Below are positions 2,869-59,150 of a stretch of 64,000 bases of DNA, piece by piece; positions within the stretch are counted from its first letter, which is position 1; each line of letters opens with the position of its first letter. Below the pieces are notes generated by a model. It was given only the letters and a program-made list of their open reading frames with translations. It made no database searches and had not been told where the DNA came from. This stretch comes from Alphaproteobacteria bacterium. GTDB lineage: Bacteria > Pseudomonadota > Alphaproteobacteria > Rs-D84. The stretch covers positions 1 to 64,000 of the forward strand of contig WRHR01000004.1 of the NCBI GenBank assembly GCA_009783145.1, given 5' to 3'. The translations under genes were made by a program, and so were the position numbers.

Positions 2869-3480
2869 TTACTTGCACATATTGATTCTTTTGCCGTCGT
2901 CGCGTTCATCTACTTTCTTATTCCGGATTTCTTGTTCCGCAGTTAATTTTTGCTTCATTAATACGATATCCGGATGAGACTGCAATTCGTCCTGCATCCT
3001 GTCCAGCGCGGCGTTTACTCCATCCAAGCTTTTCACAAACACCGGCATGACCGAGTTCGCGGCCGTTCTGATTGCCGCTTTTATATTTTCGGACTCTCCT
3101 TCCAATGCCGCGATGTGCGCCGCGATGTGCTCGGTCTCATGATTCAGCACCATGTGGTATTCGCATGAACCCGGGATATGCGACCCGTCTATATGCACCA
3201 GAAAATTCGTATATCCGACCGTCGCGTCCAGCTTGCCCAGAACGATGCAATACCCCTCGCCGGCAGGCTGGGCCGCAACACGCAATCTGAATTCTTCATC
3301 AAAACTGGCCGTAACCGTACCATGGAATTTATCCATAGGCGCGGGCGGCTGCACGACATCTCTTGTCCATTCCGTAGTGGTAATCTTCACTTCCGGAGAA
3401 ACCTTGAATTGCAAACAATCACTAGCGTATATTGTATAGTGTATAGTGCATAGTGTAAGAGTTATTAGAAGTTTTTTCAT
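2869..3480 (-). CDS. Predicted secreted HExxH metalloprotein
   Basis: A 203-residue protein with a signal peptide and the motif NHETEHIAAH, which contains HExxH, the zinc-binding signature of many metallopeptidases. A peptidase or a structural metal-binding role is possible; no family is recognised with certainty. Most of the signal peptide (TLCTIHYTIYAS) is encoded by a 7-bp tandem array, so the secretion signal itself is made of repeat DNA. The start codon overlaps the stop of the upstream S23-family gene by four bases, implying translational coupling. Confidence 0.65.
   Translation of the reverse strand: MKKLLITLTLCTIHYTIYASDCLQFKVSPEVKITTTEWTRDVVQPPAPMDKFHGTVTASFDEEFRLRVAAQPAGEGYCIVLGKLDATVGYTNFLVHIDGSHIPGSCEYHMVLNHETEHIAAHIAALEGESENIKAAIRTAANSVMPVFVKSLDGVNAALDRMQDELQSHPDIVLMKQKLTAEQEIRNKKVDERDDGKRINMCK
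3427..3460. repeat. 7-bp tandem array (gtatagt type), inverted partner of 3873-3907
   Basis: Nearly five copies of a gtatagt-like word. It codes the signal peptide of the minus-strand gene 2869-3480 and is the inverse complement of the array at 3873-3907; the two enclose the S23-family gene. Confidence 0.85.
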
Positions 3481-3854
3481 TTCTTTTGTTTTTCTTCTAA
3501 TTCCATGTTTCTCTTTGCTGTTTTTATTGATGATGTAAGTAGTTTTGTAATTTCAATACAATCACTATGAATGCTTTCATATGCTTTTTCCGATAAAAAA
3601 TCTGTATCTTTTAATATATCCAACCAATGCGCCGTTTCCGAACATTCTTTCAGCGAAATACCAAGCTTGCATATAAAATCTTTTTTGGAAAATGCTGAAT
3701 TTGCTTCCGCTACATTGGCACCTATGCTAGTTCCAGAGCGAAGCACTTGTTTAGATATTACAAATTCTTTCTTTTCTTTGCATAAATACTTATACATATT
3801 TATTATTCTGGTGGCAAATTTTTTGCTCTTAAGATGCAAAACTTTTTCTTTCAT
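3477..3854 (-). CDS. Four-helix-bundle protein, S23/IVP family
   Basis: A 125-residue protein of the family first known from intervening sequences in 23S rRNA (TIGR02436-like). The hallmark regions are visible: ISKQVLRSGTSIGANVAEA and FICKLGISLKECSETAHWLD, with a helical C-terminal part. The family forms a four-helix bundle related to the Avd accessory protein of diversity-generating retroelements; its molecular role is poorly known. The gene is enclosed by inverted 7-bp arrays, so an RNA containing it could form a stem around the ORF, as rRNA intervening sequences do. It overlaps the next gene by four bases. Confidence 0.85.
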   Translation of the reverse strand: MKEKVLHLKSKKFATRIINMYKYLCKEKKEFVISKQVLRSGTSIGANVAEANSAFSKKDFICKLGISLKECSETAHWLDILKDTDFLSEKAYESIHSDCIEITKLLTSSIKTAKRNMELEEKQKK

Positions 3855-3872
3855 AAAACCCGCCGATCTAAA

Positions 3873-3907
3873 ACACTATACACTTTACACTATACATTAT
3901 ACACTAG
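3873..3907. repeat. 7-bp tandem array (acactat type)
   Basis: Five copies of acactat-like words. It provides the last codons and stop of virB4 and lies just upstream of the S23-family gene. It is the inverted partner of 3427-3460. Confidence 0.85.
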
Positions 3908-6317
3908 TTTTCTTCAAATATTCTTCAACAAACTGATTGCCCATGGTTTTATAAAGTTCTTCCGCCAAAAGAACCGACGAACGCCCCGATTCGAACAATC
4001 TCAGCAAGCTGCCCAGCCCGCCCAATTCCGTATTCAGAATTACAGATTCTCCGTTCACTGGTCGGGACAGCAGCACGGCGCGCTTCAGTGTCGGGTAAGC
4101 TTTGCCCTGTATAAATGCCATTTCCAGCGGGTTCAGCTTCCAATGCTCGTAATCCGCGCTGTCCGCCGCAGGATTGCGGAAGAACAATACTGTTTGCGCC
4201 TGGCCGCGCACAACATCGCCTATCCCCAGCTTGTCCAACACGTTCGCGCGCTGGAACGCCGCCATATACGCCTGCCTGTTTTTGCGACCCTCTTGCAGCC
4301 CCACTATAAAATTCTCGCGGAACATTTTGTTTTCCAGCATCGGCGCGGTTTCGTCTATCATAATCAGCGCCGGATTCCCTCCCGACACCGTGGCCGTGTT
4401 TATTCTATGCAGAATATAGGAAATCACCGCCGGCGCCAAGGTCTCGTCCTGCAGCACCTCGGTAAAGTCAAACGTAGTAAGGCGCGAGAACAGGTCCAGA
4501 GTATCCTTGTCTTCATTAAACACGCTTCCGTATTGAAGGTCGTCAACCCATTGCTTCAACGCCGGGCGCATCTTGCCGTCGGATGCAAAGCAAGACACCC
4601 ACAGGTTTTTAAGCTTTCTCTGCTTGTCGTCCAGGTAATCGAAACTCACAGAAACCGCACGCGCAATTTCATCCAACGATTGCGGGTCGGACTGTCCCGA
4701 AAGCATCATCAGCCAGCGCCGCAGAAAAGCGCGGTTCGCGTCGGTATCGTCCAGCTTGAACGGATTCAACTGAGTCTCGAACCCGGCTTCTATCTTGTCT
4801 TTGGATTTGCTGGCGAATGTCAGGTATTTTCCACCGGTGGCAAGAGTAAATATCTCGGCGCCGCGATTGCGGTCAAAGAAGAACGCTTTTAATTTAGGAT
4901 GCCGCAGGGATTGCGCGATAAGGAAAGAGAACAATGTGGTCTTTCCGCCCCCGGTCGGACCGATTGTAAGAGTATGCGCGACGGCTGCCTGGGCATCAGA
5001 GACATGGAATTGAAACTGATACGGAGTTCCCTGCGCCGTCGGAAATACCACCAAAGGCCCCGGTCCCCAATCGGAATTCGCAACCCCGGTCGGCGCGCTG
5101 GACAAGGGAAAGCTGGTCGCCGCGGTCATCGACAACAGCTTGAACGACCGCGGGAACACATCGAATCCCGGCATCAGCGAAAAGAACGATGCTTTGGCCG
5201 CAAAATTTTCTATTACAGGTGAAATGCCGAACCCGGCGCAAACCTTATTAAAATCCGCTATATGCCCGGCCAGCTCTTCAGGCGTATTGCCGGACAGGAC
5301 GAACAGCGGATAATAATCCACCAGGCTCTGGCTGCCCGTAACATTCTCGTCCATGGAGTACAGGGCTTCGCCGATCTGCTGGGCGGCGACATCCTCGCTT
5401 TCGCTTTTGTTGGAGTCGCTGCTGGCCATCTTCTGCCGGATTATAGTTTCGGTTTTCGCGGCCCCCAGGACGTTGAATGCGTTCATGCATATCAGCTCGG
5501 TCTGTATCGTTCCAATCGCGTCGAAAAAGTCCTCGTCCATAAAATCCGGCGAGGTCTTGAATGATGCCAACGCCAGATGTTTTTCCGCCATGCCGTGCGA
5601 GACCTTGATAATCCCGTTTCCGCCAAATGAAATTTCATCTGTAGTCATCATGCTTGACATGTTCTGATCGGTGCGGAAGACCGCCGGCTTTGAAACAGGC
5701 GATAAAATCCGCGAATACAGCGACGCAAAATTCTTGACCGAGTTGTGTTTTAACAAAACTGGTTTGTATGCGGCGAGTATGGATTCCAGATAAGTGGAAA
5801 CTTGGGCCATTTTATCTACGGCCCCCAGCCCGCGGATACTGATGACCGCATAATATGAGTTTTTGAAAATCTTCAAGCCCTGGCTGTTCCACTTGTCGCT
5901 TATTTTTTGCAATACGGGCTGGTCGAACTCATAATCGGTCTTTTGCTCGGCCGCGTCGCGAATCATGAAAAAGCGGATCGTGACGGCCGGGTCTTTGATC
6001 TGGTTGAATAATTGGGCGCGCAGCTCCAGAAACTTCAGCTTCGTCGCATCGTCATGCATCGACGTCTGCACCCCGTCGATTTCATAAGCGCGGACGACCG
6101 AACCGTCCAAGAGCCCCACCGAGGCATTATCCGAATAAATCGATGCAAACGGCAGATAATCCGAATACTTGCGATATCCGAACTTGGGAAGAACCATTTT
6201 CGATAACAGGCCCGAGTACAAATACATGACTATGAAAAAGAACACAACCACGCCGGCCATAACGAACGTTGTCGGCGAGTATATGTCGGATACGAAAAAA
6301 TTCAGCATATCTTGCAC
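3897..6317 (-). CDS. virB4: VirB4/TraC-family type IV secretion ATPase
   Basis: An 806-residue ATPase of the VirB4 family, which powers pilus assembly or substrate transfer in type IV secretion. It has a membrane segment near residues 17-38, Walker A GPTGGGKTT (453-461) and Walker B LIMIDE (651-656). A GTG at 6317 is taken as start, with an ATG three codons in as alternative. The virB3-like gene ends four bases upstream, the usual virB3-virB4 order. No other virB/virD gene lies nearby. The last residues and the stop come from a 7-bp repeat array. Confidence 0.88.
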   Translation of the reverse strand: MQDMLNFFVSDIYSPTTFVMAGVVVFFFIVMYLYSGLLSKMVLPKFGYRKYSDYLPFASIYSDNASVGLLDGSVVRAYEIDGVQTSMHDDATKLKFLELRAQLFNQIKDPAVTIRFFMIRDAAEQKTDYEFDQPVLQKISDKWNSQGLKIFKNSYYAVISIRGLGAVDKMAQVSTYLESILAAYKPVLLKHNSVKNFASLYSRILSPVSKPAVFRTDQNMSSMMTTDEISFGGNGIIKVSHGMAEKHLALASFKTSPDFMDEDFFDAIGTIQTELICMNAFNVLGAAKTETIIRQKMASSDSNKSESEDVAAQQIGEALYSMDENVTGSQSLVDYYPLFVLSGNTPEELAGHIADFNKVCAGFGISPVIENFAAKASFFSLMPGFDVFPRSFKLLSMTAATSFPLSSAPTGVANSDWGPGPLVVFPTAQGTPYQFQFHVSDAQAAVAHTLTIGPTGGGKTTLFSFLIAQSLRHPKLKAFFFDRNRGAEIFTLATGGKYLTFASKSKDKIEAGFETQLNPFKLDDTDANRAFLRRWLMMLSGQSDPQSLDEIARAVSVSFDYLDDKQRKLKNLWVSCFASDGKMRPALKQWVDDLQYGSVFNEDKDTLDLFSRLTTFDFTEVLQDETLAPAVISYILHRINTATVSGGNPALIMIDETAPMLENKMFRENFIVGLQEGRKNRQAYMAAFQRANVLDKLGIGDVVRGQAQTVLFFRNPAADSADYEHWKLNPLEMAFIQGKAYPTLKRAVLLSRPVNGESVILNTELGGLGSLLRLFESGRSSVLLAEELYKTMGNQFVEEYLKKTSV

Positions 6318-8139: not shown

Positions 8140-9222
8140 ATGGGTTTCAATTGCGGAATTGTGGGGCTGCCGAATGTCGGAAAATCCACGCTTTTTAACG
8201 CTCTGACGGCAACGCAAGCCGCGGCGGCGCAGAATTATCCTTTCTGCACCATAGAGCCCAATACCGGGAAAGTGATCGTGCCGGACGAAACGCTTGAGAA
8301 ATTGGCCGTGGTCGCAAAATCGCAGAAAATCATACCAACGCAAATGGAGATAGTGGATATCGCGGGCTTGGTCAAAGGCGCATCTGCCGGCGAAGGTTTG
8401 GGCAACAAATTTCTTGGGCATATACAAGCGGTGGACGCAATAATACATGTCGTAAGATGTTTTGAAAATGATGATATAACGCATGTTTCCGGCCGGATTG
8501 ACCCTCTGGACGATATCGCAACAATTGAAACAGAGTTAATGCTAGCGGATTTAGAGTCTCTGGAAAAACAAATCGCCAATCTGACCAAAAAGGCCCGCGG
8601 CCAAGATAAAGAAGCAATCAAGCAACTGGAAATCGCAGAAAAGATAAAAGCCGGGTTAGAACAAGGGATTCCTGCGCGTAAAATTTTCAATTTTCAATTT
8701 TCAATTTTCAATTTGCTTACGGAAAAGCCGGTTATTTACGTCTGCAACGTTGACGAGGCGTCCGCCGCAATCGGCAATAGGTTTTCTTCGGCTGTTGCGG
8801 AAAAATACGGCGAGGAGGCAAAGGTCTTGGTGATTTCTGGCCAAGTAGAAATGGAAATCGCGCAAATAGCGGACTTGGGGGAAAGGAAAATCTTTTTGGA
8901 CGATTTGGGGTTGAAAGAATCCGGTCTTGATAAAGTCGTTAAGACGGGGTACGAAACGTTGGGTTTACAAACGTTTTATACGGTTGGGCCGAAAGAAGCG
9001 CATGCTTGGACGATAACAGTTGGGATGACCGCGCCGCAGGCGGCGGGGAAGATCCATACTGATTTCGAAAAGGGATTCATAAGGGCGGAAATCATAACAC
9101 CGGCGGATTATCTGGCATTGGGCAGTGAAGTCGCGGTAAAGGAAGCAGGGAAAATGCGCCTGGTCGGTCGGGATTATATAGTCCAGCCCGGCGACATATG
9201 TCATTTTTTGTTTAATAATTAA
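8140..9222 (+). CDS. ychF: YchF/Ola1-type ribosome-associated ATPase
   Basis: A 360-residue Obg-family P-loop ATPase of usual length, thought to act in translation and stress response. The P-loop is GLPNVGKST (9-17), followed by switch regions DIAGLVKGASAGEGLGNKFL and the C-terminal TGS-like domain ending in GRDYIVQPGDICHFLFN. Residues about 183-192 (FNFQFSIFNL) are encoded by four perfect copies of a 7-bp word inserted in frame in the coiled-coil to G-domain connection. GAAGG lies upstream of the ATG. Confidence 0.95.
   Translation: MGFNCGIVGLPNVGKSTLFNALTATQAAAAQNYPFCTIEPNTGKVIVPDETLEKLAVVAKSQKIIPTQMEIVDIAGLVKGASAGEGLGNKFLGHIQAVDAIIHVVRCFENDDITHVSGRIDPLDDIATIETELMLADLESLEKQIANLTKKARGQDKEAIKQLEIAEKIKAGLEQGIPARKIFNFQFSIFNLLTEKPVIYVCNVDEASAAIGNRFSSAVAEKYGEEAKVLVISGQVEMEIAQIADLGERKIFLDDLGLKESGLDKVVKTGYETLGLQTFYTVGPKEAHAWTITVGMTAPQAAGKIHTDFEKGFIRAEIITPADYLALGSEVAVKEAGKMRLVGRDYIVQPGDICHFLFNN
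8683..8710. repeat. 7-bp tandem array inside ychF (attttca x4)
   Basis: Four identical copies in frame, with a fifth partial copy. Confidence 0.9.
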
Positions 9223-10196: not shown

Positions 10197-11825
10197 TTAT
10201 GCTTCGGATAGCTTATTAAGCTTTTCTTGTGTCGCGGCGATTTCCGAATCCAGCTTTTTCGCGCGGCTCATTGATTCTGGCGTCATTTCTTTCAGCGCGG
10301 TCGCGCGGTCTGCGTTCAAGTTGCCGATATAATTTTTCAGTTTTAACGCGACGATGAATTTCTCCGCGTCTGTTTCGGATAAGGGACAAACGGCTCCAGC
10401 CGTTGCATTATCAAAATTAATCCCCAGTTTAATCAAAAACTCCGAATGTTTTTCAATTAACTCTGGATACGCTGCAGAAATTTCTGATAATTGTTTTTGC
10501 ACAATAGCATCAACTTTCGGCATTGTTGCGCTTTCTTGCCCGCCGGAGCCTTGGCGAAGGCGGGTCCACTTGTGCCATTCGTTGAATTTTCGCTGGTCGT
10601 ATTCCTGCCGGAATTCGTTTTTAAGATTGGGGTCGGATATTTTTTCGGTCTCGGCCCGCAGAAACTTTTCTGCCTGTGTCCTGCCTCCTGGCGTTTTAAC
10701 CAAGTAATTCGTATTCGCCATCTGCCACAGGAAATCCACCAATGGAACTGCAGATTTTATAACATCTTCCATTATCTTTTTCCCATCGGTCTTGCGCAAG
10801 ATATCATCTGGGTCTTTCCCGCCCGCGACGAACGCGAACCGGATATCGGAATTGTCGCGCAGCAGAGGCATTACCAGCCCGGCGGCGCGCGCGGCGGCCT
10901 TTTGCCCCGCGCCGTCGCCGTCAAAACAGAAGGTTATATTGCGGTTATGCTTGCACAGAATTTGCAAGTGGTCTTCGGTCAAAGCTGTGCCCAGCGGCGC
11001 GACGGTTTCCGGAAAACCATGAGTCTGCATCTGGATTGCGTCAATTTGGCCTTCTACGACGATGCTGCGGTTTGCGCGATGAATCGCATCGCGCGCATAA
11101 AACAGCCCGAACACTGTCGCGCGCTTGTGAAACAATTCAGTATCGGAAGTGTTGATGTATTTCGGCTCGCTGCCGTCCATAGAACGCCCGGAAAACGCGA
11201 TAACTTCGCCCCGCGAATTTGTAATCGGAAACATTAGTTTATCGCGAAAGAAGTCATAAAGCCCGTAATCCCCGCGGCGGACCAATCCGGCGGCGATTAG
11301 GTTGGCTTCTTTCTGCGATGCGAATTTTGTAGAGATGATATTATTGCGCGGCGCGTAGCCCAAGCGGTATTTTTTTATCACTTCATCGGAGAACCCGCGG
11401 CCGCGAATGTATTTCAAGGCCTCGGCGCCTGCGGGCCCGAAAAGTTGTTCCTGATAGATTTTTGCCGCCAGCTCTTGAATTTCCAGATAAGATTTTTCGC
11501 GCGCGATCTGTTCGGGCGGCTTTGGCTTATAGTCCGGCAGCTTTAATCCCGCCATTTGCGCCAAATCTGCAATTGCGGATTTGAAGTCCATATTGTTGGA
11601 CTTCATAACGAACGAGATTATGTCGCCATGCTCGCCGCAGCCGAAGCAATGATAGAATCCCTTTTGCTCGTTAACGGAGAACGATGGAGTTTTCTCGCCG
11701 TGAAAAGGACAGCGTCCCCAAAAATTCTGGCCTTTTTTGGTCAAAGGCACACGCCGCCCGACGACATCAACGATTGACAGCCGCTGGCGAAGTTCATCTG
11801 TAAAATTATTGTTAAATCCGGCCAT
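10197..11825 (-). CDS. dnaG: DNA primase
   Basis: A 542-residue primase that makes RNA primers at the replication fork. It has the CHC2 zinc finger (C39, H42, C60, C63), the TOPRIM catalytic residues E258 (VVEGQIDAI) and D302/D304 (FDGDGAG), and a C-terminal helicase-binding part. An in-frame insertion LRQGSGGQ (423-430) is encoded by a GC-rich palindromic repeat also found in topA. It follows the small gene at 11868, both on the minus strand downstream of topA. Confidence 0.95.
   Translation of the reverse strand: MAGFNNNFTDELRQRLSIVDVVGRRVPLTKKGQNFWGRCPFHGEKTPSFSVNEQKGFYHCFGCGEHGDIISFVMKSNNMDFKSAIADLAQMAGLKLPDYKPKPPEQIAREKSYLEIQELAAKIYQEQLFGPAGAEALKYIRGRGFSDEVIKKYRLGYAPRNNIISTKFASQKEANLIAAGLVRRGDYGLYDFFRDKLMFPITNSRGEVIAFSGRSMDGSEPKYINTSDTELFHKRATVFGLFYARDAIHRANRSIVVEGQIDAIQMQTHGFPETVAPLGTALTEDHLQILCKHNRNITFCFDGDGAGQKAAARAAGLVMPLLRDNSDIRFAFVAGGKDPDDILRKTDGKKIMEDVIKSAVPLVDFLWQMANTNYLVKTPGGRTQAEKFLRAETEKISDPNLKNEFRQEYDQRKFNEWHKWTRLRQGSGGQESATMPKVDAIVQKQLSEISAAYPELIEKHSEFLIKLGINFDNATAGAVCPLSETDAEKFIVALKLKNYIGNLNADRATALKEMTPESMSRAKKLDSEIAATQEKLNKLSEA
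10536..10567. repeat. GC-rich palindromic repeat inside dnaG
   Basis: cccgcc / ggcggg arms around gagccttggcgaa. In frame in dnaG; close relative of 13529-13560. Confidence 0.8.
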
Positions 11826-12407: not shown

Positions 12408-14729
12408 TTACTTCTTCTTTGCCCAAGATTTCTTTGCGCTGGGCTTTTTATTGTTAATCAAGTCTGCTGCCTCGGATAGCGAAGGTTGTTCCTTAACGGA
12501 AACATTGATTTTGTTCGATGAGATATATGCGCCGTATCTGCCTGTCGGATAAAAGTAAATCATCTTATCCGTCGTGGGATTTTTGCCGAGTTCAATCGGT
12601 TCGGCTTTCTGCCCGGCGCCGCTTAACAGCTCTTTCGCGATTTCCAGACTAATCGTTTCCGCGGTATATTTTTTAGCGCTGGCGCGCTTGGCGTCCTTGC
12701 CCGCGCCTTGCTGCACGTACGGTCCGAACCGACCGACCATGAATTTTATATCTTCGCCTAACTCACGAGACGCGAAACGCGAGACGCGAGACGCGTCATT
12801 ATCCCCTTCGCGCGTTTCGCTTTTCGCATCTCGCGTCTCGGCGACCGACAGGTCGCGAGTATATTTGCATTTAGGATAATTGCTGCATGCCAGAAAAGCG
12901 CCGTATCGCGATACTTTCAGCGACAGCGTTCCTGTCCCGCATTCCGGGCATTTGTTATTCCCTTCGGGGAACAAATGCGCCGCCAATGCCGCATTAACCG
13001 TTGTCATAACCTCTGGACTTGGCACGTCGCGAGCGGTCCCGACCAATGGCTCGAACGCGCCCCAGAAAGCATTCAATGCCGGCAGTTTTCTTGTCGCTCC
13101 ATTTGACACATCGTCCAAAGTATCTTCTGTCTTGGCCGTGAAATTCACATCCACTATATCTGTAAAGTACTTGGTTAAAAACGCCGTAAGCAGCCAGCCG
13201 GCTGGGGTCGGGAAAAACCGCTGCTTTTCGTTTTTCACATATTCGCGGTCGACGATAGTGCTCATTATCGAAGAATAAGTGGACGGTCGCCCCACTCCCA
13301 GCTCTTCCAGTTTTTTAATCAAGGACGCTTCGGAATAGCGCGGCGGAGGTTGGGTAAAATGCTGCTCTGGCAACAGTTTCACTATATCAATCTTATCACC
13401 GACAGCCAATGGCGGAAGCATGGATTCCTTGTCATCGTCGTCCGCATCGTCCTTGCCTTCGGCATAAACTTTCAGGAATCCATCGAAAGTGCGCGTGGTG
13501 CCGACGGCATGAAAGATTGCTGTTTCGGCTTGCCCGTTTGGGCCTTGGCGAAGGCGGGTCTCGACATCCACGACAACCGAGTCAAACTCCGCATTGGTCA
13601 TCTGGCATGCGACCGCGCGCTTCCAGATAAGCTCGTAAAGTTTTTCTTCGTCTCCACCGGCCCCGACCCCGACCCCGACATCCGTGGGGCGTATAGCTTC
13701 GTGCGCCTCCTGAGCATTTTTGGATTTGGTCGCGTATATGTTGGGCGAGTTCGGCAGAAATTTATCGCCGTATTCTTTTCCTATATAATCGCGGATTGAT
13801 GCCACCGCATCCATCGATAGATTTGTAGAGTCGGTGCGGATATAAGTGATAAGCCCGGCTTCATAGAGCTTCTGCGCGGCCGAGCTGGTGCGCTTTGCGG
13901 AAAAGTAAAGTTTCCGCGCGGCTTCCTGTTGAAGCGTGCTGGTGGTAAACGGCGCCGCCGGCTTGCGCGAAGTTTTCTTCTTTTCCAAACTTATGACTTC
14001 TGCCTTTATCACCGGTTCGCCCAAGCGGTTCAGAATCGCGTCCATTTCGGCCTGTTTCCCAACAGACATCTTTTCAATCTTTTCGCCATTGAATTGCGTC
14101 AGCCGCGCTATGAAATTGCCCGCATTCGGCTTTTCGCATTCGGCATCCAGCGACCAGTACTCGATAGGTTTGAACGCTTCTATTTCACGCTCGCGATCCA
14201 CGACCAATGCTACGGCGACAGACTGCACGCGTCCAGCCGATCGGCCCATATTTTTCCGCCACAACACCGGCGACAGCTTGAACCCTATAAGGTAGTCCAG
14301 CGCGCGCCGAACCAGATACGCGTCAACCAAGTTCTGGTCGATTTCGCGCGGGTTTGCGATTGCCTCGAGAACTGCTTTCTTGGTTATTTCGTTGAAAGTC
14401 GCGCGGTAAAGCTGCTTTCCTTTCAAGGCCCCGCGCGAGTTCAAGATATCCAGCAGGTGCCAGGAAATCGCCTCTCCCTCGCGGTCTTGGTCGGTGGCGA
14501 GATATACGGCGTCGGCTTTTTTTACTTCATCCAGAATCAGCTTTATCTGTTTTTCCTTGCCCGGCATAATCTGCCACTTCATCGCGAAATCATTCGCCGT
14601 ATCGACGCTTCCGTCTTCGGGCACCAGGTCGCGAACATGTCCGACGGACGCCACTACGCGGTATTCTTTGCCCAGATATTTTTCAATAGTCTTTGCTTTT
14701 GCGGGAGATTCTACGATTAAAAGATTCAT
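12408..14729 (-). CDS. topA: DNA topoisomerase I
   Basis: A 773-residue type IA topoisomerase that relaxes negative supercoils. The TOPRIM domain starts MNLLIVESPAKAKTIEKYLG; the catalytic tyrosine is Y296 in YIRTDSTNLS. One C-terminal zinc ribbon is visible (CPECGTG ... CSNYPKC), then a lysine-rich tail. Two repeat insertions are in frame: LRQGPNGQ (about 393-400, GC-rich palindrome) and residues about 630-655, encoded by a complete heptamer hairpin, between the zinc ribbon and the next repeat domain. The ATG abuts the rodA stop with no gap. Confidence 0.96.
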   Translation of the reverse strand: MNLLIVESPAKAKTIEKYLGKEYRVVASVGHVRDLVPEDGSVDTANDFAMKWQIMPGKEKQIKLILDEVKKADAVYLATDQDREGEAISWHLLDILNSRGALKGKQLYRATFNEITKKAVLEAIANPREIDQNLVDAYLVRRALDYLIGFKLSPVLWRKNMGRSAGRVQSVAVALVVDREREIEAFKPIEYWSLDAECEKPNAGNFIARLTQFNGEKIEKMSVGKQAEMDAILNRLGEPVIKAEVISLEKKKTSRKPAAPFTTSTLQQEAARKLYFSAKRTSSAAQKLYEAGLITYIRTDSTNLSMDAVASIRDYIGKEYGDKFLPNSPNIYATKSKNAQEAHEAIRPTDVGVGVGAGGDEEKLYELIWKRAVACQMTNAEFDSVVVDVETRLRQGPNGQAETAIFHAVGTTRTFDGFLKVYAEGKDDADDDDKESMLPPLAVGDKIDIVKLLPEQHFTQPPPRYSEASLIKKLEELGVGRPSTYSSIMSTIVDREYVKNEKQRFFPTPAGWLLTAFLTKYFTDIVDVNFTAKTEDTLDDVSNGATRKLPALNAFWGAFEPLVGTARDVPSPEVMTTVNAALAAHLFPEGNNKCPECGTGTLSLKVSRYGAFLACSNYPKCKYTRDLSVAETRDAKSETREGDNDASRVSRFASRELGEDIKFMVGRFGPYVQQGAGKDAKRASAKKYTAETISLEIAKELLSGAGQKAEPIELGKNPTTDKMIYFYPTGRYGAYISSNKINVSVKEQPSLSEAADLINNKKPSAKKSWAKKK
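12766..12840. repeat. Heptamer hairpin inside topA (gcgagac type)
   Basis: Left arm with four copies of gcgagac/gcgaaac, a short loop and a complementary right arm, all in frame in topA. The same word family occurs in infB and truB. Confidence 0.9.
13529..13560. repeat. GC-rich palindromic repeat inside topA
   Basis: Shares ccttggcgaaggcgggtc with the dnaG copy; translates as LRQGPNGQ. Confidence 0.8.
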
Positions 14730-19803: not shown

Positions 19804-19869
19804 ATTTACGATTTACGAATTACGATTTATGGGGAATAAAATCGTAATTCGTAAATCTCAAATCGTAAA
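19804..19869. repeat. Inverted pair of 7-bp arrays before pheS
   Basis: Words of type atttacg, then a loop tggggaat, then the complementary aaatcgt-type arm. The right arm ends 11 bases before the pheS ATG. Confidence 0.85.
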
Positions 19870-29003: not shown

Positions 29004-29099
29004 ATTTACGATTTAGGATTTGCGATTTACGATTTTGTGGCTAGAATTGCAGGCATGGTTAAAAAAATCGTAAATCTTAAATCGGAAATCGTAAATTAC
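29004..29099. repeat. Inverted pair of 7-bp arrays spanning the mnmG start
   Basis: Left arm 29004-29031 (atttacg type), right arm 29065-29099 (aaatcgt type). The mnmG ATG at 29055 is in the loop and the right arm codes its first residues. Confidence 0.9.
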
Positions 29100-33357: not shown

Positions 33358-35742
33358 TTAGAGAGTGGCTTTTACATTCTCCACCTCATAACATTCAACC
33401 CTGTCCCCCTCTTTAAGGTCATTATATTTATCGAAACTCATTCCGAATTCCGTGCCTACCCCTACTTCCTTCACTTCATTCTTTTCGCGTTTGAGCATAC
33501 CTATCTTGCCGTCGTAAATCACGACATTGTCGCGCAGCAAGCGCACGAAAGCGTCTTTCTTTATCACGCCTTCGGTAACGCGGCAGCCCGCGACGCGCGT
33601 GCCCTTGCCGACCGTAAATAGTGCGATGACATCCGCGTATCCGATAAAGGTCTCGCGGCGTTCCGGCGCAAGTTTTCCCGACAGTATTTCTTTCAATTCG
33701 TCAGTAATGCGGTACACGACCGAGTGATAGCGTATATCAACATTATTCTGGCGCGCCATTTCGCGCACCGCCGCATCCGCGCGCACATTGAACGCGATAA
33801 TAACCGCGCCGCTGGCGGTCGCCAAGCGTATATCGCCCTCGGTAATCTGCCCGACGCCGGCGGACAGCAAATCAATCCCCGCTTTTTCCGAGCCGACGTT
33901 TTTCAGCATATCGCGGATTGCTTCCACGCTGCCCTGCACGTCAGCGCGCAGTATAATCGGCAGCAACAGCTTTTTATTATCATCGCGTTTTGCAAACAGT
34001 TCTTCCAGCGACGAACGTTTTACAGTATTCGCGCGGTCTTTTTCTTTTTGTGCGCGATATGCAGCGACTTCGCGGGTCTGCGCCTCGTTCTCCAATACAT
34101 TTAAAGTATCGCCTGCGTTCGGCACGTTTTCAAGTCCCAGAATAATTGCAGGTTGTCCGGGACCAACGGATTTTATGCGTGTGCCGGCGGAGTTTATAAG
34201 TCCGCGTATGCGGCCAAAGGTCTCGCCCACGACGAACGCATCGCCAATGCCCAGAGTTCCTTGCTGTATCAAAACAGTCGCAGTCGCGCCCAGACCTTTT
34301 TCCTGCTTGGCCTCTACCACCACACCCACTGCGGGCATGTCGGGGTCGGCTTTCAGATCCATAATGTCCGCCTGCAGCAGAATAGCGTCTTCCAATTTAT
34401 CCAAGTTTATTTTCTTGGTTGCGGAAATCTCAACGGCTTGAACTTCGCCGCCCATTTCTTCCACCTGCACTTCGTATTGCAGCAAATCGGTTTTGACCTT
34501 TTGCGGGTTGGCATCGGGCAAATCTGTCTTGTTGATCGCAACAATGAACGGAACCCGTGCCGCGCGGATGTGGTTGATTGCCTCGACCGTCTGAGGCATT
34601 ATGGAATCGTTCGCCGCGACCACCAGAACCACTATATCCGCCATATTCGCGCCGCGCGCGCGCATCGCCGTGAAAGTCTCGTGCCCCGGAGTATCCAGGA
34701 AAGTTATCATTTTCCCGGACTTTGATTTTACCTCGTAAGCCGACACGTGCTGAGTTATTCCGCCCGCCTCTCCGGCCGCAACATTCGCATTGCGGAACGC
34801 GTCCAGCAGAGATGTTTTTCCATGGTCGACGTGTCCCACCACCGTAACGACTGGCGCGCGTTGTTTTAAATGTTCCGGCGTCGCTGCGCGGTTCAGTAAA
34901 TCTTCATAAGGCGCATGCGATACTCGTTTTACAGTTGCGCCGAATTCCGTTGCCACCAATTCGGCCGTGTCCGCGTCGATTGCTTGGTTCTGGGACGCCA
35001 TCATCCCCATTTCCATAAGTTTTTTGACGACATTTCCGACTTTCTCGGCCATGGCAGCAGCCAAGTCTTTTACGACGATCGAATCTCCCAAGACAACCTC
35101 GCGCGCGATTTTTTGCGGTTGAGTAAACATTGCGCGGGCTTTGTCGCGAAAGCGCTTCAAAGAAGCCTCGGAGCGGCGGCGATTGCTCCCCCGGATTTCG
35201 ATTTCCTCTTCTTCCCCGCCGCCTATGACTATATCGTGAATGGAGATTTTTCCCTTGGAAAAATCTTTCTTTTTCTCGGCATCGCCGCCGCGTCCGCCGC
35301 GTCCGCGTTTTCTTTCTTCCGCATCATCGCGAGACGCGAGACGCGAAACGCGAGACGCGCCAACGCCCGATTCATCTCCACGCGTTTCGCGTTTCGCGTT
35401 TCGCGTCTCGTCTTCATCGGTAGCTTTCGCGCTCAGCTTTTCTTTTACGGCTTCGTATTCTTCAGACTCGCGGGCTATTTCGGCCTCGCGCGCGGCGCGG
35501 GATGCGGCGTCCGCGGCTTCGCGCAGTCTGCGATCTTCTTCTTTGGCGCGCGCGGCCTCTAAAACTGCGCGCAGCTTTTCATCGGCCGCGCTTTTGGGCG
35601 CGTTCGGCGCGCGCGGCTCGTCCCGCAGCTCCATGGATCCCGGCATAGCAACCCGACGGCGCCGTTCTACGAAAACAGCGTCGCCTTTCTTGCTTTGCAC
35701 CGCATCGGTGGTAACTGATTTACCAAGTGTCAATGTTGCCAT
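33358..35742 (-). CDS. infB: Translation initiation factor IF-2
   Basis: A 794-residue GTPase that brings fMet-tRNA to the ribosome. G1 motif GHVDHGKTS starts at residue 303, G3 is DTPGHE, G4 NKTD. The N-terminal part is charged and low-complexity; residues about 112-138 are encoded by a full heptamer hairpin. GGAG lies before the ATG. It follows nusA on the same strand; rimP and ylxR, usual neighbours, are absent. Confidence 0.96.
35329..35410. repeat. Heptamer hairpin inside infB (gcgagac type)
   Basis: Left arm 35329-35356, right arm 35381-35410, in frame in the flexible N-terminal part. Same word family as in topA and truB. Confidence 0.9.
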
Positions 35743-35766
35743 AAAAAATTACTCCGTAATTTTTTA

Positions 35767-35847
35767 AGTTATAAATTATAAGTTATAAGTTATAATCATT
35801 CGGCGTTGCGCGGAATATTATAACTTACCCTTTATAACTTATAACTT
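35767..35847. repeat. Inverted pair of 7-bp arrays between nusA and infB (ttataac type)
   Basis: Arms 35767-35796 and 35815-35847. The loop contains cattcggcgttgcgcgg, which is related to the loops at 41969-41987 and 49359-49378. Confidence 0.9.
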
Positions 35848-38970: not shown

Positions 38971-39913
38971 AGTTGTTTTGGATTACTTGGGCGAGATAGA
39001 AAAACACGCATTGGCGCAATTGCCGGCATCACGGTTCGAGCTGGTCCGCGCCAAACGCGTAAAGAAAGACGAAGCGGAGCGCAAGGCCAATCTTGCGGGC
39101 GCGGATGCGGTATATTTCCGCGGAGATGATTTTTATTCCGACTTTGTTCTGCGCGGGAACCCAAACCTTAAACTGGCGGTGTATGGCGGAACGGGATATC
39201 AGCAATATATTGACGTCGATGCGGCCACGAAACATGGAATCGCGGTTATCGCGACCCCGGGCCTGAATGCGAATGCCGTCGCCGAGTATGCCGTCGCAAT
39301 GGCGCTGGACGCGGTGCGCAAGGTTTCGTTTTACAACTCCGATATAAAGAATGGCAAGAAAAAAATCCTGGTTACAAACGAGATAAGCGCGCTTAAAATC
39401 GGGCTTATCGGGCATGGAAACATCAACCGCAGGGTGGACGCGATTTTTCAGGGCGGCTTTGGCGCGGATGTCAGATTCTGGGACTATGCGGACAAAACTT
39501 CTACGCCTTTGAATAGAATCTTGAAAGAAAGCGATATTGTTATAATCGCGATAACGGAAAACGCGCAGACTCGGGGTTTTCTGAACAAAGCGCGGATCGC
39601 GATGATGAAGAAAGGCGCGGTATTGATAAACCCGGCGCGCCCCGGACTGGTTGATGCCAATGCTTTATACGCCGCGCTGAAATCGGAAAAGCTGTCCGCG
39701 GCGGCGTTTGATGGTATGCCGGAAGGTAGCATACGCGCGAAGCTGCTGGCCCTGTCGGACGATAGGTTTATCGCCAGCCCGCATATCGCGGCGCGCACGC
39801 TCCAGGCGCTGCATGCCACCGATATGGCGGCGCTGAAAAGCATCGCGGAGTTTTTTAAGACCGGAAAGTCGAAGCTGATAATAAATCCGGAGTATAAAAA
39901 ATTTACGATTTAA
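38954..39913 (+). CDS. D-2-hydroxyacid dehydrogenase-family protein
   Basis: A 319-residue NAD-binding oxidoreductase of the D-2-hydroxyacid dehydrogenase family: Rossmann motif IGLIGHGNI, the conserved arginine in NPARPGLVD and the catalytic histidine in SPHIAA. The substrate is unknown; the glutamate of the usual R-E-H triad is not obvious. The gene starts inside the end of tolC (17-base overlap) and lies within the export operon, an unusual place. The stop codon is part of a 7-bp array. Confidence 0.75.
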   Translation: MAKKIKVVLDYLGEIEKHALAQLPASRFELVRAKRVKKDEAERKANLAGADAVYFRGDDFYSDFVLRGNPNLKLAVYGGTGYQQYIDVDAATKHGIAVIATPGLNANAVAEYAVAMALDAVRKVSFYNSDIKNGKKKILVTNEISALKIGLIGHGNINRRVDAIFQGGFGADVRFWDYADKTSTPLNRILKESDIVIIAITENAQTRGFLNKARIAMMKKGAVLINPARPGLVDANALYAALKSEKLSAAAFDGMPEGSIRAKLLALSDDRFIASPHIAARTLQALHATDMAALKSIAEFFKTGKSKLIINPEYKKFTI

Positions 39914-39967
39914 GATTTGCGATTTACGATTTGTTGGGAGTAAAATCGTAATTCGTAAATCGTAAAT
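39901..39967. repeat. Inverted pair of 7-bp arrays before macA (atttacg/aaatcgt)
   Basis: Loop gttgggagt; the loop is almost the same as at 59113-59124. Confidence 0.9.
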
Positions 39968-41226: not shown

Positions 41227-41945
41227 TGTCTAAAGAACCTCTAATCATTTCGCTGCAGAAAATCAACAAAAGCTTTCCCATGGAAGTGGGGGGAGAACAA
41301 CAGGTCCTGTTTGACGTCAATTTTGACATCCGCGCCGGCGAATTCGTATCGATCATGGGGCCGTCGGGGTCGGGAAAATCTACTTGCATGAATATCATCG
41401 GCGCGCTGGATACGCCGTCAAGCGGAACTTATAAGCTTTATGGCAACGACATCACCAACATGACCTCGGACGAGCTGGCGATAGCCCGCAACGAATATAT
41501 CGGCTTTGTGTTTCAGAACTTTAACCTGCTGACCAAGCGCAGCGTTCTGGACAATGTCATGCTGCCTCTGATATATCGCGGAATGTCTCCGGACGAGCGC
41601 GCGCGGCGCGCGCGCAAGATGATCGACGCCGTGGGCCTTGAAAAGTTCGAATCCTATCTGCCGACGCAGCTATCGGGCGGAATGCGCCAGAGGGTCGCGA
41701 TCGCGAGGGCGCTTGCCGGAGAGCCGAAATTGATACTCGCGGACGAGCCCACCGGGAATCTCGACAGCAAGATGGGGCATGAAATCCTGGAGATGTTCAA
41801 AAAGCTGAACAAGGATCTGGGGATAACGATAATAATGATTACGCACGAGTTCGATATAGCGAAACATACGCGGCGCCTGATTCATATCCGCGACGGCCGC
41901 ATAACGCACGATGGTCCGGTACCGAAGGACGATAGGAAGTTATAA
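41226..41945 (+). CDS. MacB/LolD-type ABC transporter ATPase
   Basis: A 239-residue ABC ATPase: Walker A GPSGSGKST, Q-loop FQNFNLL, signature LSGGMRQRVAIARAL, Walker B LILADEPTGNLD and H-loop ITHE. It overlaps macA by one base. In classical MacB the ATPase and permease are one chain; here they are two genes. The last codons and stop are in a 7-bp array. Confidence 0.92.
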   Translation: MSKEPLIISLQKINKSFPMEVGGEQQVLFDVNFDIRAGEFVSIMGPSGSGKSTCMNIIGALDTPSSGTYKLYGNDITNMTSDELAIARNEYIGFVFQNFNLLTKRSVLDNVMLPLIYRGMSPDERARRARKMIDAVGLEKFESYLPTQLSGGMRQRVAIARALAGEPKLILADEPTGNLDSKMGHEILEMFKKLNKDLGITIIMITHEFDIAKHTRRLIHIRDGRITHDGPVPKDDRKL

Positions 41946-42017
41946 AGGATAAGTTATAAGTTATAATGTATCGAGCCGCGCCGAATTATTATAACTTATC
42001 CTTTATAACTTATAACT
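41939..42017. repeat. Inverted pair of 7-bp arrays (ttataac type) in the macAB operon
   Basis: Arms 41939-41968 and 41988-42017 with a loop containing gagccgcgccgaa. It sits between the ATPase and permease genes. Confidence 0.9.
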
Positions 42018-49322: not shown

Positions 49323-49329
49323 CATAGAA

Positions 49330-49410
49330 GTTATAAGTTATAAAGGATAAGTTATAATAGACCGAGCAACGCCGAACTATTATAACTTATAACTTATCCT
49401 TTATAACTTA
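49330..49410. repeat. Inverted pair of 7-bp arrays between tRNA-Val and ybaB (ttataac type)
   Basis: Arms 49330-49358 and 49379-49410 with a loop containing gagcaacgccgaa. It contains the ybaB stop codon. Confidence 0.9.
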
Positions 49411-52379: not shown

Positions 52380-52406
52380 GCGAGACGCGAGACGCGAGAC
52401 GCGGAG
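52380..52406. repeat. 7-bp array between truB and rpsO (gcgagac x3)
   Basis: Inverted partner of 52501-52528; the two arms enclose the last part of truB. Confidence 0.85.
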
Positions 52407-53291
52407 TTATATGTTTATGACACGATTTGGTTTCAATATGCAGTCTTCAATAAATCCTATGCCGATGAATTTATCGTTATGATAAACTCTCAGCAATTTC
52501 GCGTTTCGCGTTTCGCGTTTCGCGTCTCGAATAAATCCGCCGTTTTGAAACAGCTTCGCGTCCGTTTCGTTCAGATTCCAAACCGGAATGTCGCCCAGTC
52601 CGAAATCAGGTGGCTGCAGATAATTGTTTATCCCAGCTCGGCCGCTATTATTAAACAAATTTTCCAAGAAATCAAGCCGCACCGCATTTTTTATATCAAA
52701 GCCGTTGGTATGCGTGCGGCGTATTGAGTCGCAAGCCGCAATAGTTTCGCATTTTGCCGCGATATCCCGCGCCAAACTGCGTATATAAGTCCCGGGGCTG
52801 CATCTGACTATGAATTTGGAATTATTTATAAATTTTAAATCATAAATCGTAATTTTTCGCGCCGGTATCTCGAAAGATTTGCCTGCGCGCGCAAGCTGAT
52901 ATGCGCGCCGCCCGCCCACATGCACTGCGCTGTAGCTTGGGGGAGTCTGCCAGATTTCGCCAATCAATGATTCGCAGACCGTGTGAATTTGCTTCTCGGT
53001 CGGTATATTTTCGTTCTGCTCCAGAATCTTGCCCGTAATATCGTCGGTGTCCGTACGAATGCCCCATTGAATAGAAAATTCGTATTCCTTTGTTGCGGTT
53101 TCGTCTAAATATGGAATTACTTTCGTCGCCTCGCCGAGTGCGATTACCAACAGGCCCGATGCCATAGGGTCCAAGGTTCCGACATGCCCGAAAGTTTTCG
53201 CGCCGAACATTCGCGCAATGCGCCCGCCCGCCGCGCGGGATGATATTCCGCTGGGCTTGTCCAATAAAATAAATCCGGAGCTATTCATCAC
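52407..53291 (-). CDS. truB: tRNA pseudouridine-55 synthase
   Basis: A 294-residue enzyme making psi55 in the T-loop of tRNAs. The catalytic aspartate is in GHVGTLDPMASG; LDKPSGISS, RCSPGTYIRSLARDI and the C-terminal PUA-like part are present. Residues about 255-264 ([11 protein letters not shown]) come from a 7-bp array. The start overlaps the mutS stop by four bases, an unusual coupling. Confidence 0.93.
   Translation of the reverse strand: MMNSSGFILLDKPSGISSRAAGGRIARMFGAKTFGHVGTLDPMASGLLVIALGEATKVIPYLDETATKEYEFSIQWGIRTDTDDITGKILEQNENIPTEKQIHTVCESLIGEIWQTPPSYSAVHVGGRRAYQLARAGKSFEIPARKITIYDLKFINNSKFIVRCSPGTYIRSLARDIAAKCETIAACDSIRRTHTNGFDIKNAVRLDFLENLFNNSGRAGINNYLQPPDFGLGDIPVWNLNETDAKLFQNGGFIRDAKRETRNAKLLRVYHNDKFIGIGFIEDCILKPNRVINI
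52501..52528. repeat. 7-bp array inside truB (gcgtttc type)
   Basis: Four copies in frame; complement of the gcgagac/gcgaaac family found in topA and infB. Confidence 0.9.
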
Positions 53292-55792: not shown

Positions 55793-55805
55793 TTCGTTCG
55801 CTCAA

Positions 55806-55930
55806 AATCGTAAATCGTTAGTCGTGAATCGTCAATCGTGGTTGTTGCAACAACATAAGTTGTCCTTTATAAAGGACAATGTTAATTGTCGCACTTTTTC
55901 GATTCACGACTAACGACTAACGATTCACGA
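55806..55930. repeat. Composite palindrome between xseB and mutS
   Basis: Left array (aatcgta/aatcgtc words, 55806-55840), two inner palindromes (gttgttgcaacaac; tgtcctttataaaggaca) and right array (cgattca/cgactaa words, 55899-55930). The right arm codes the C-terminus of XseB. Confidence 0.85.
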
Positions 55931-56720: not shown

Positions 56721-58173
<1,453 letters not shown>

Positions 58174-58191
<18 letters not shown>

Positions 58192-58240
58192 CAATTATCG
58201 GGGAGTTTAATCGCTAATTGATAATTGCTAATTGATAATT
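58174..58240. repeat. Inverted pair of 7-bp arrays between rnpA and yidD (ttagcaa/aattgct)
   Basis: Loop ttatcggggagttt; the loop core ggggagt is shared with pairs built from other words. Confidence 0.9.
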
Positions 58241-59096: not shown

Positions 59097-59150
59097 ATTT
59101 ACGATTTACGATTTGTTGGGAGTGAAATCGTAAATCGTAAATCGTAAATT
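59097..59150. repeat. Inverted pair of 7-bp arrays between accB and accC (atttacg/aaatcgt)
   Basis: Loop gttgggagtg, near-identical to that at 39901-39967. It starts right after the accB stop. Confidence 0.9.

Follow-up and report, generated by a model that had tools for sequence, protein, structure and literature searches.

S23-family genes are carried by intervening sequences (IVSs) of 23S rRNA, the origin and purpose of which have been open for decades. In the window analysed here, meaning the whole 64-kb stretch of DNA, an S23-family gene is found not inside a 23S rRNA gene but between virB4 and a gene for a secreted protein, and it is surrounded by inverted arrays of tandem heptamers. 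What kind of unit is this, and how do the gene and the arrays belong together? A preliminary description of this DNA had suggested a link between S23-family proteins and the creation or spread of the arrays, and the data below bear on that link from the single locus outwards.

Results

An S23 gene between inverted heptamer arms

The S23 gene of the window (125 aa) has on each side a 36-bp arm of TATAGTG-type heptamers, with a unit of about 7 bp, and the two arms are inverted relative to each other (Table 1). Read from the outside inwards, the arms are ACTAGTGTATAATGTATAGTGTAAAGTGTATAGTGT at 3873-3908 and ACTAGCGTATATTGTATAGTGTATAGTGCATAGTGT at 3421-3456, and they are complementary at 32 of 36 positions. 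The inverse complementarity claimed in the preliminary description is real; its bounds (3427-3460 and 3873-3907) fell a few bases short and are corrected here. The only ORF between the arms, at 3477-3854 on the minus strand, belongs to the S23/23S_rRNA_IVP family as had been proposed, matching PF05635 (E 6e-29; 101 bits against a cut-off of 33.8) and TIGR02436 (E 2.5e-31; 108 bits against 24). With a spacer of 418 bp, compared with 9-103 bp for the other inverted pairs, this is also, as first described, the sole arm pair of the window that encloses a whole gene. Both neighbours are indeed cut into, the virB4 stop codon (3897-3899) lying in one arm and the signal-peptide h-region of the next gene in the other. 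An RNA of the element is predicted to fold into a stem of about 34 bp closing the S23 ORF (z = -5.9), in keeping with the stem that had been envisaged.

Table 1. Features of the S23 locus and gene-less inverted array pairs, in window coordinates
Feature	Position	Strand	Description
Upstream arm (5' of S23 gene)	3873..3908	-	tandem TATAGTG-type heptamers, purine-rich reading inwards; contains virB4 stop
S23-family gene (TIGR02436/PF05635)	3477..3854	-	125 aa, four-helix-bundle, intact; stop overlaps ATG of next gene
Downstream arm	3421..3456	-	reverse complement of 3873-3908 (32/36); encodes h-region LCTIHYTIYA of next gene's signal peptide
virB4-like ATPase	3897..6317	-	arm supplies last codon and stop (stop 3897-3899)
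Next gene, secreted protein without assigned family	2869..3480	-	N-terminus is element sequence in place of G001 version
Gene-less inverted pair	12766..12840		ACGCGAG family, the heptamer of S23 locus L006
Gene-less inverted pair	19804..19857		ATTTACG family; loop 9 nt
Gene-less inverted pair	29004..29096		ATTTACG family
Gene-less inverted pair	35328..35410		ACGCGAG family
Gene-less inverted pair	35765..35847		AAGTTAT family; irregular arm of S23 locus L002 present
Gene-less inverted pair	39901..39967		ATTTACG family; loop GTTGGGAGTA
Gene-less inverted pair	41937..42017		L002 arm copy
Gene-less inverted pair	49328..49410		L002 arm copy
Gene-less inverted pair	52380..52529		ACGCGAG family
Gene-less inverted pair	55805..55925		AAATCGT family
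Gene-less inverted pair	58172..58233		AATTAGC family; loop TCGGGGAGTT
Gene-less inverted pair	59097..59142		ATTTACG family; loop GTTGGGAGTG

Heptamer arrays are scattered through the window as a whole. We counted 24 lag-7 segments against 0-1 in dinucleotide shuffles, and 13 segments at lag 14, a multiple of seven, with at most one at every other period tested. Inverted array pairs number 13, against none in five shuffles, and a single one of them (3421-3908) holds a gene. The core of the irregular L002 arm is present in seven copies in the window and in none in 80 kb of G001, a relative of the same genus. For the ATTTACG and AATTAGC array families, no S23 gene with a matching heptamer was found in the 92%-complete assembly. 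The short-loop hairpins at 39901-39967, 58172-58233 and 59097-59149, drawn from two heptamer families, have a GGGAGT-like loop in common, and some S23 elements have a similar ribosome-binding leader. Two observations concern coding sequence: ychF has an in-frame AATTTTC array (8682-8714), without counterpart in G001, that adds a short low-complexity peptide to this conserved GTPase, and the primase (10240-10900) has an LRQGSGGQ-type insert that looks like another dispersed coding-sequence repeat.

Arms are a general property of S23 genes

Each of the six S23 genes in the window genome is flanked by inverted arms, built of a heptamer or octamer that differs from gene to gene. The preliminary description had proposed looking for arrays beside other S23 genes, and we found them strongly enriched there. 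Using a flank test with its threshold at the 99th percentile of random intervals (arm score of same-size intervals: median 7, maximum 14, of 2222), inverted arrays flank 63 of 67 S23 genes in the window's GTDB family and 6 of 339 non-S23 genes of these genomes, the S23 loci not all being independent because several share a junction by descent. Arrays do not enclose small genes in general: in these controls 2 of 71 small genes (part of the 6 of 339) were enclosed. One enclosed control is the ribosomal S11 gene, which presumably lies between two separate hairpins; ParE toxins were too few to serve as a small-gene control.

Outside the family the flank test was passed by 29 of 51 Bacteroidota S23 loci (counting in one Spirochaetes and two Desulfonema loci) and by 18 of 29 other proteobacterial loci, so about 60% of the sampled loci in these groups have arms. 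A further 14 of 20 additional loci passed, one on a fecal phage contig failed, and all 16 S23 genes on named plasmids have arms (Nostoc, Aulosira, Dolichospermum, Anabaena, Planktothrix, Gloeocapsa, Euhalothece, Bernardetia, Treponema and Monoglobus). S23 genes with heptamer arms extend over at least six phyla. The gene is in the sense direction relative to its upstream neighbour in 60 of the 67 family loci. Plasmid S23 elements are often located in defence loci; we noted S23 elements between cas2 and cas1 on the Anabaena cylindrica plasmid pANACY.01 (L312, 1015-3106), between hsdS and hsdR (L297) and between drmD and a methyltransferase (L311). At locus L001 of the window genome (1015-1839), the S23 gene is joined in frame, via an arm, to a prepilin-like gene.

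The two arms and the protein vary together

Irregular units in one arm have an in-register match in the other arm 72% of the time, and 10% of the time after a shift of one or two units; the higher figure is an upper view, since the best register is what the alignment tends to pick. In the orthologous elements L004 and L238 (G000 and G002) the heptamer has changed in both arms. S23 protein similarity predicts the heptamer, nearest S23 relatives having similar arms (mean 0.386, permutation maximum 0.232). Where different genera have an identical gene junction, its S23 genes are sometimes of clearly unrelated lineages (17-31% identity) though alike in orientation, and such junctions have therefore been hit repeatedly. 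Arms designed for stop codons were considered and rejected: stop codons occur in 45 of 57 arm units reading into the element where composition predicts 37 (P 0.006), and reading outwards the figures are 22 and 16, which is mostly purine skew.

The S23 gene encodes a real protein. It is under purifying selection (pN 0.09-0.22, pS 0.57-0.92), with dN/dS at most about 0.12 where dS is unsaturated and calculable, and residues Q36, R39, S43, N47, E50 and E73 are near-invariant. By sequence, a single relative of solved structure was found, the five-chain entry 2RLD.

Array density follows the presence of S23

Within the window's GTDB family, array density depends on whether a genome has S23 genes, as the proposed link would lead one to expect. 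The median is 22 arrays per 100 kb in 12 S23-bearing genomes, against 0 (maximum 5) in 13 S23-less relatives (Mann-Whitney P 0.001; Spearman 0.70), a correlation that is not phylogenetically independent because the genomes are related, and one sampled over 12-80 kb per genome with several genomes incomplete. In 80 kb of the S23-less G001 there is one array. No dispersed arrays were seen in G020 (one S23 gene) or in the 12.7 kb read of G026 (four S23 genes). Gene-less arrays match the S23 heptamers of their own genome more often than those of other genomes in G000 (46 vs 16%), G003 (72 vs 32%), G008 (33 vs 4%) and G028 (48 vs 16%); four other genomes gave no significant excess and two no match.

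Dispersal was seen in this family only. In Bacteroidota it is unsupported, arrays away from S23 genes numbering 2 against 0 in about 200 kb each (20-kb samples). Two candidate drivers were rejected within the family: the presence of reverse transcriptase (PF00078) does not follow S23, and RAYT/Y1 transposase (PF01797) matches only in two S23-less genomes of the 28 searched.

Empty sites and replacement

Empty sites, which the preliminary description had suggested looking for, were found for the window element and in two Nostoc-plasmid cases. G001 lacks both arrays at the window site; there virB4 abuts the next gene, whose signal peptide is ordinary. In several further genera the same junction holds other hairpins, with the 3' arm as the signal-peptide core. 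Among Nostoc plasmids, four related ones have a whole cytosine methyltransferase that is interrupted by an S23 element in another, where 306-327 bp are replaced. A second element takes the place of 197 bp present in three empty alleles, whose flanks are up to 95% identical. The elements are mobile and insert by replacement, with no target-site duplication visible in the three occupied/empty comparisons, a small number of events. Elements of Nostoc sp. C052 and N6 have arms of TAATTCG and CAATTCG units, respectively, and CAATTCG stands exactly at the left breakpoint of the methyltransferase empty site. Targeting by heptamer match, that is, heptamers derived from the target, is not established, the second empty site having no matching heptamer at its breakpoint.

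Intervening sequences of 23S rRNA have the same plan

In G429 an S23 gene is located inside the 23S rRNA of both rRNA operons (loci L255/L256; Rfam RF02541), some 1,150 nt into the RNA from its 5' end and by estimate near helix 45, and its arms are the inverted heptamer arrays TCAGGAATCAGAGGTCAGGGATCAGGGATCAGA and TCAGGAATCAGAGTTCAGGAATTAGGTATCAGA. The Coxiella IVS is reported to have tandem GACAGAT heptamers ahead of the S23 ORF and a 28-bp stem, with processing by RNase III (PMC4990558). The parallel with rRNA IVSs drawn in the preliminary description is supported by these two cases, and because the plan is identical, we see the classical IVS as one special case of S23 element. In the window element, as in IVSs with an S23 ORF (Coxiella, Leptospira and others), terminal inverted repeats close a stem around the ORF. 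The window element differs in lying in a protein-coding operon and not in rRNA, such sites being many per genome and spread over many phyla. Gene-less derivatives also exist here, and heptamer arms are not given as a general rule in the IVS papers that we found.

Discussion

The most satisfactory account, and one we consider probable, is that of a family of small mobile hairpin elements in which the S23 protein is a putative cognate factor for its own arms. The unit at 3421-3908 would be one copy of such an element, an S23 gene between inverted tandem-heptamer arms. Upon transcription, usually from the host operon in the sense direction, the arms would pair into a stem of some 34 bp around the S23 message, much as in an IVS. 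S23, as the element's sole protein, most likely recognises its own type of arm, in the form of hairpin DNA or RNA, and may act in trans. Together with host replication and repair enzymes it could help new copies to enter at replication or repair intermediates, where each would take the place of a short piece of resident DNA at a site with little homology. Arms that were copied or corrected together, or selected for the stem, would stay complementary while the heptamer drifts, and in some genomes the same activity might spread gene-less arm copies, giving the scattered heptamer arrays. In its widest form the idea would make S23 proteins the sequence-specific drivers of pan-bacterial mobile hairpin elements with tandem-heptamer ends, entering by replacement without a classical transposase and being the source of both rRNA IVSs and dispersed heptamer repeats, cyanobacterial STRRs included; this we offer tentatively, as possible rather than probable.

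It could be argued that S23 is a passenger, the arms being mobile via some other enzyme of host or element and S23 being cargo that aids either, as it would if it stabilised or regulated the hairpin RNA. To our knowledge S23 has no known catalytic domain, the majority of hairpins are gene-less, and co-inheritance alone would also link S23 and heptamer. The near absence of arrays from S23-less relatives is hard to reconcile with a passenger role, as is the agreement of gene-less arrays with own-genome S23 heptamers, and the obvious alternative enzymes give little help, Y1/RAYT transposases being absent from S23-bearing family genomes and reverse transcriptases failing to track S23. We regard this alternative as rather unlikely. 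Less likely still is a function at the RNA level only, with the stem as an RNase III site that excises the element from polycistronic RNA, S23 binding the excised RNA, and mobility incidental and rare: repeated movement is indicated by the many copies that lack a gene and by the occupation of identical junctions by unrelated S23 lineages, and the contrast in array density would be left unexplained, even if such a function would suit the predominant sense orientation, the strong predicted stem and a plan shared with 23S IVSs, in which RNase III cleavage is published (PMC4990558). That slippage and template switching grew the arrays and copied inverted partners as replication errors, with S23 genes merely surviving best between them, is very improbable given the restriction to period 7, the specific enclosure of S23, the nearly array-free close relatives without S23 and the copying of whole irregular arms to new sites, for all that the in-register variants fit quasi-palindrome copying and a single in-frame array inside ychF gained units.

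A mobile hairpin element with S23 as its cognate factor would resemble several known systems in part. REPIN/RAYT (TnpA-REP) systems likewise have short inverted units dispersed intergenically, with a single protein gene that has these units on either side and is tied to their sequence type. However, RAYT is a Y1 HUH nuclease, a protein that the S23-bearing family genomes do not have, and the REPIN unit is a single palindrome where the units here are tandem heptamers. As with MITEs, short gene-less copies have terminal inverted repeats in common with a coding element, and the short-loop gene-less hairpins may be internal-deletion derivatives of S23 elements; unlike MITEs and DDE transposons, there is replacement of host DNA, no target-site duplication was seen and no transposase was identified. 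The Avd accessory proteins of diversity-generating retroelements, for which a review uses PF05635 (PMC10053308), have a four-helix-bundle fold family in common with S23, but reverse transcriptase presence in the family does not track S23, and the genome's single match lies on contig C1, the window being on C4.

We found no paper in the open-access literature searched that links S23 to heptamer arrays. The results tie S23-bearing IVSs to dispersed heptamer repeats: at least six phyla have S23 genes in the form of heptamer-armed elements, within one family the repeats go with the gene, and together they make a candidate type of mobile element without a known transposase. Tandem heptamers of patchy distribution, for which the authors give no known origin, have been described in cyanobacterial STRRs, in the TAACTGA arrays of Beggiatoaceae (PMC4679880) and in the P6b stems of cyanobacterial trnL introns, where complementary heptamers (TDNGATT/NNTGAGT) replace one another (PMC4476775). 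Cyanobacteria also carry S23 elements, and the window, like STRRs, has tandem heptamers in intergenic DNA, a likeness of pattern only. These papers draw no S23 link, and the Beggiatoaceae sets are almost all direct whereas S23 arms are inverted. The complementary stem is shared with P6b, and the trnL intron heptamer stems look like S23-type hairpins.
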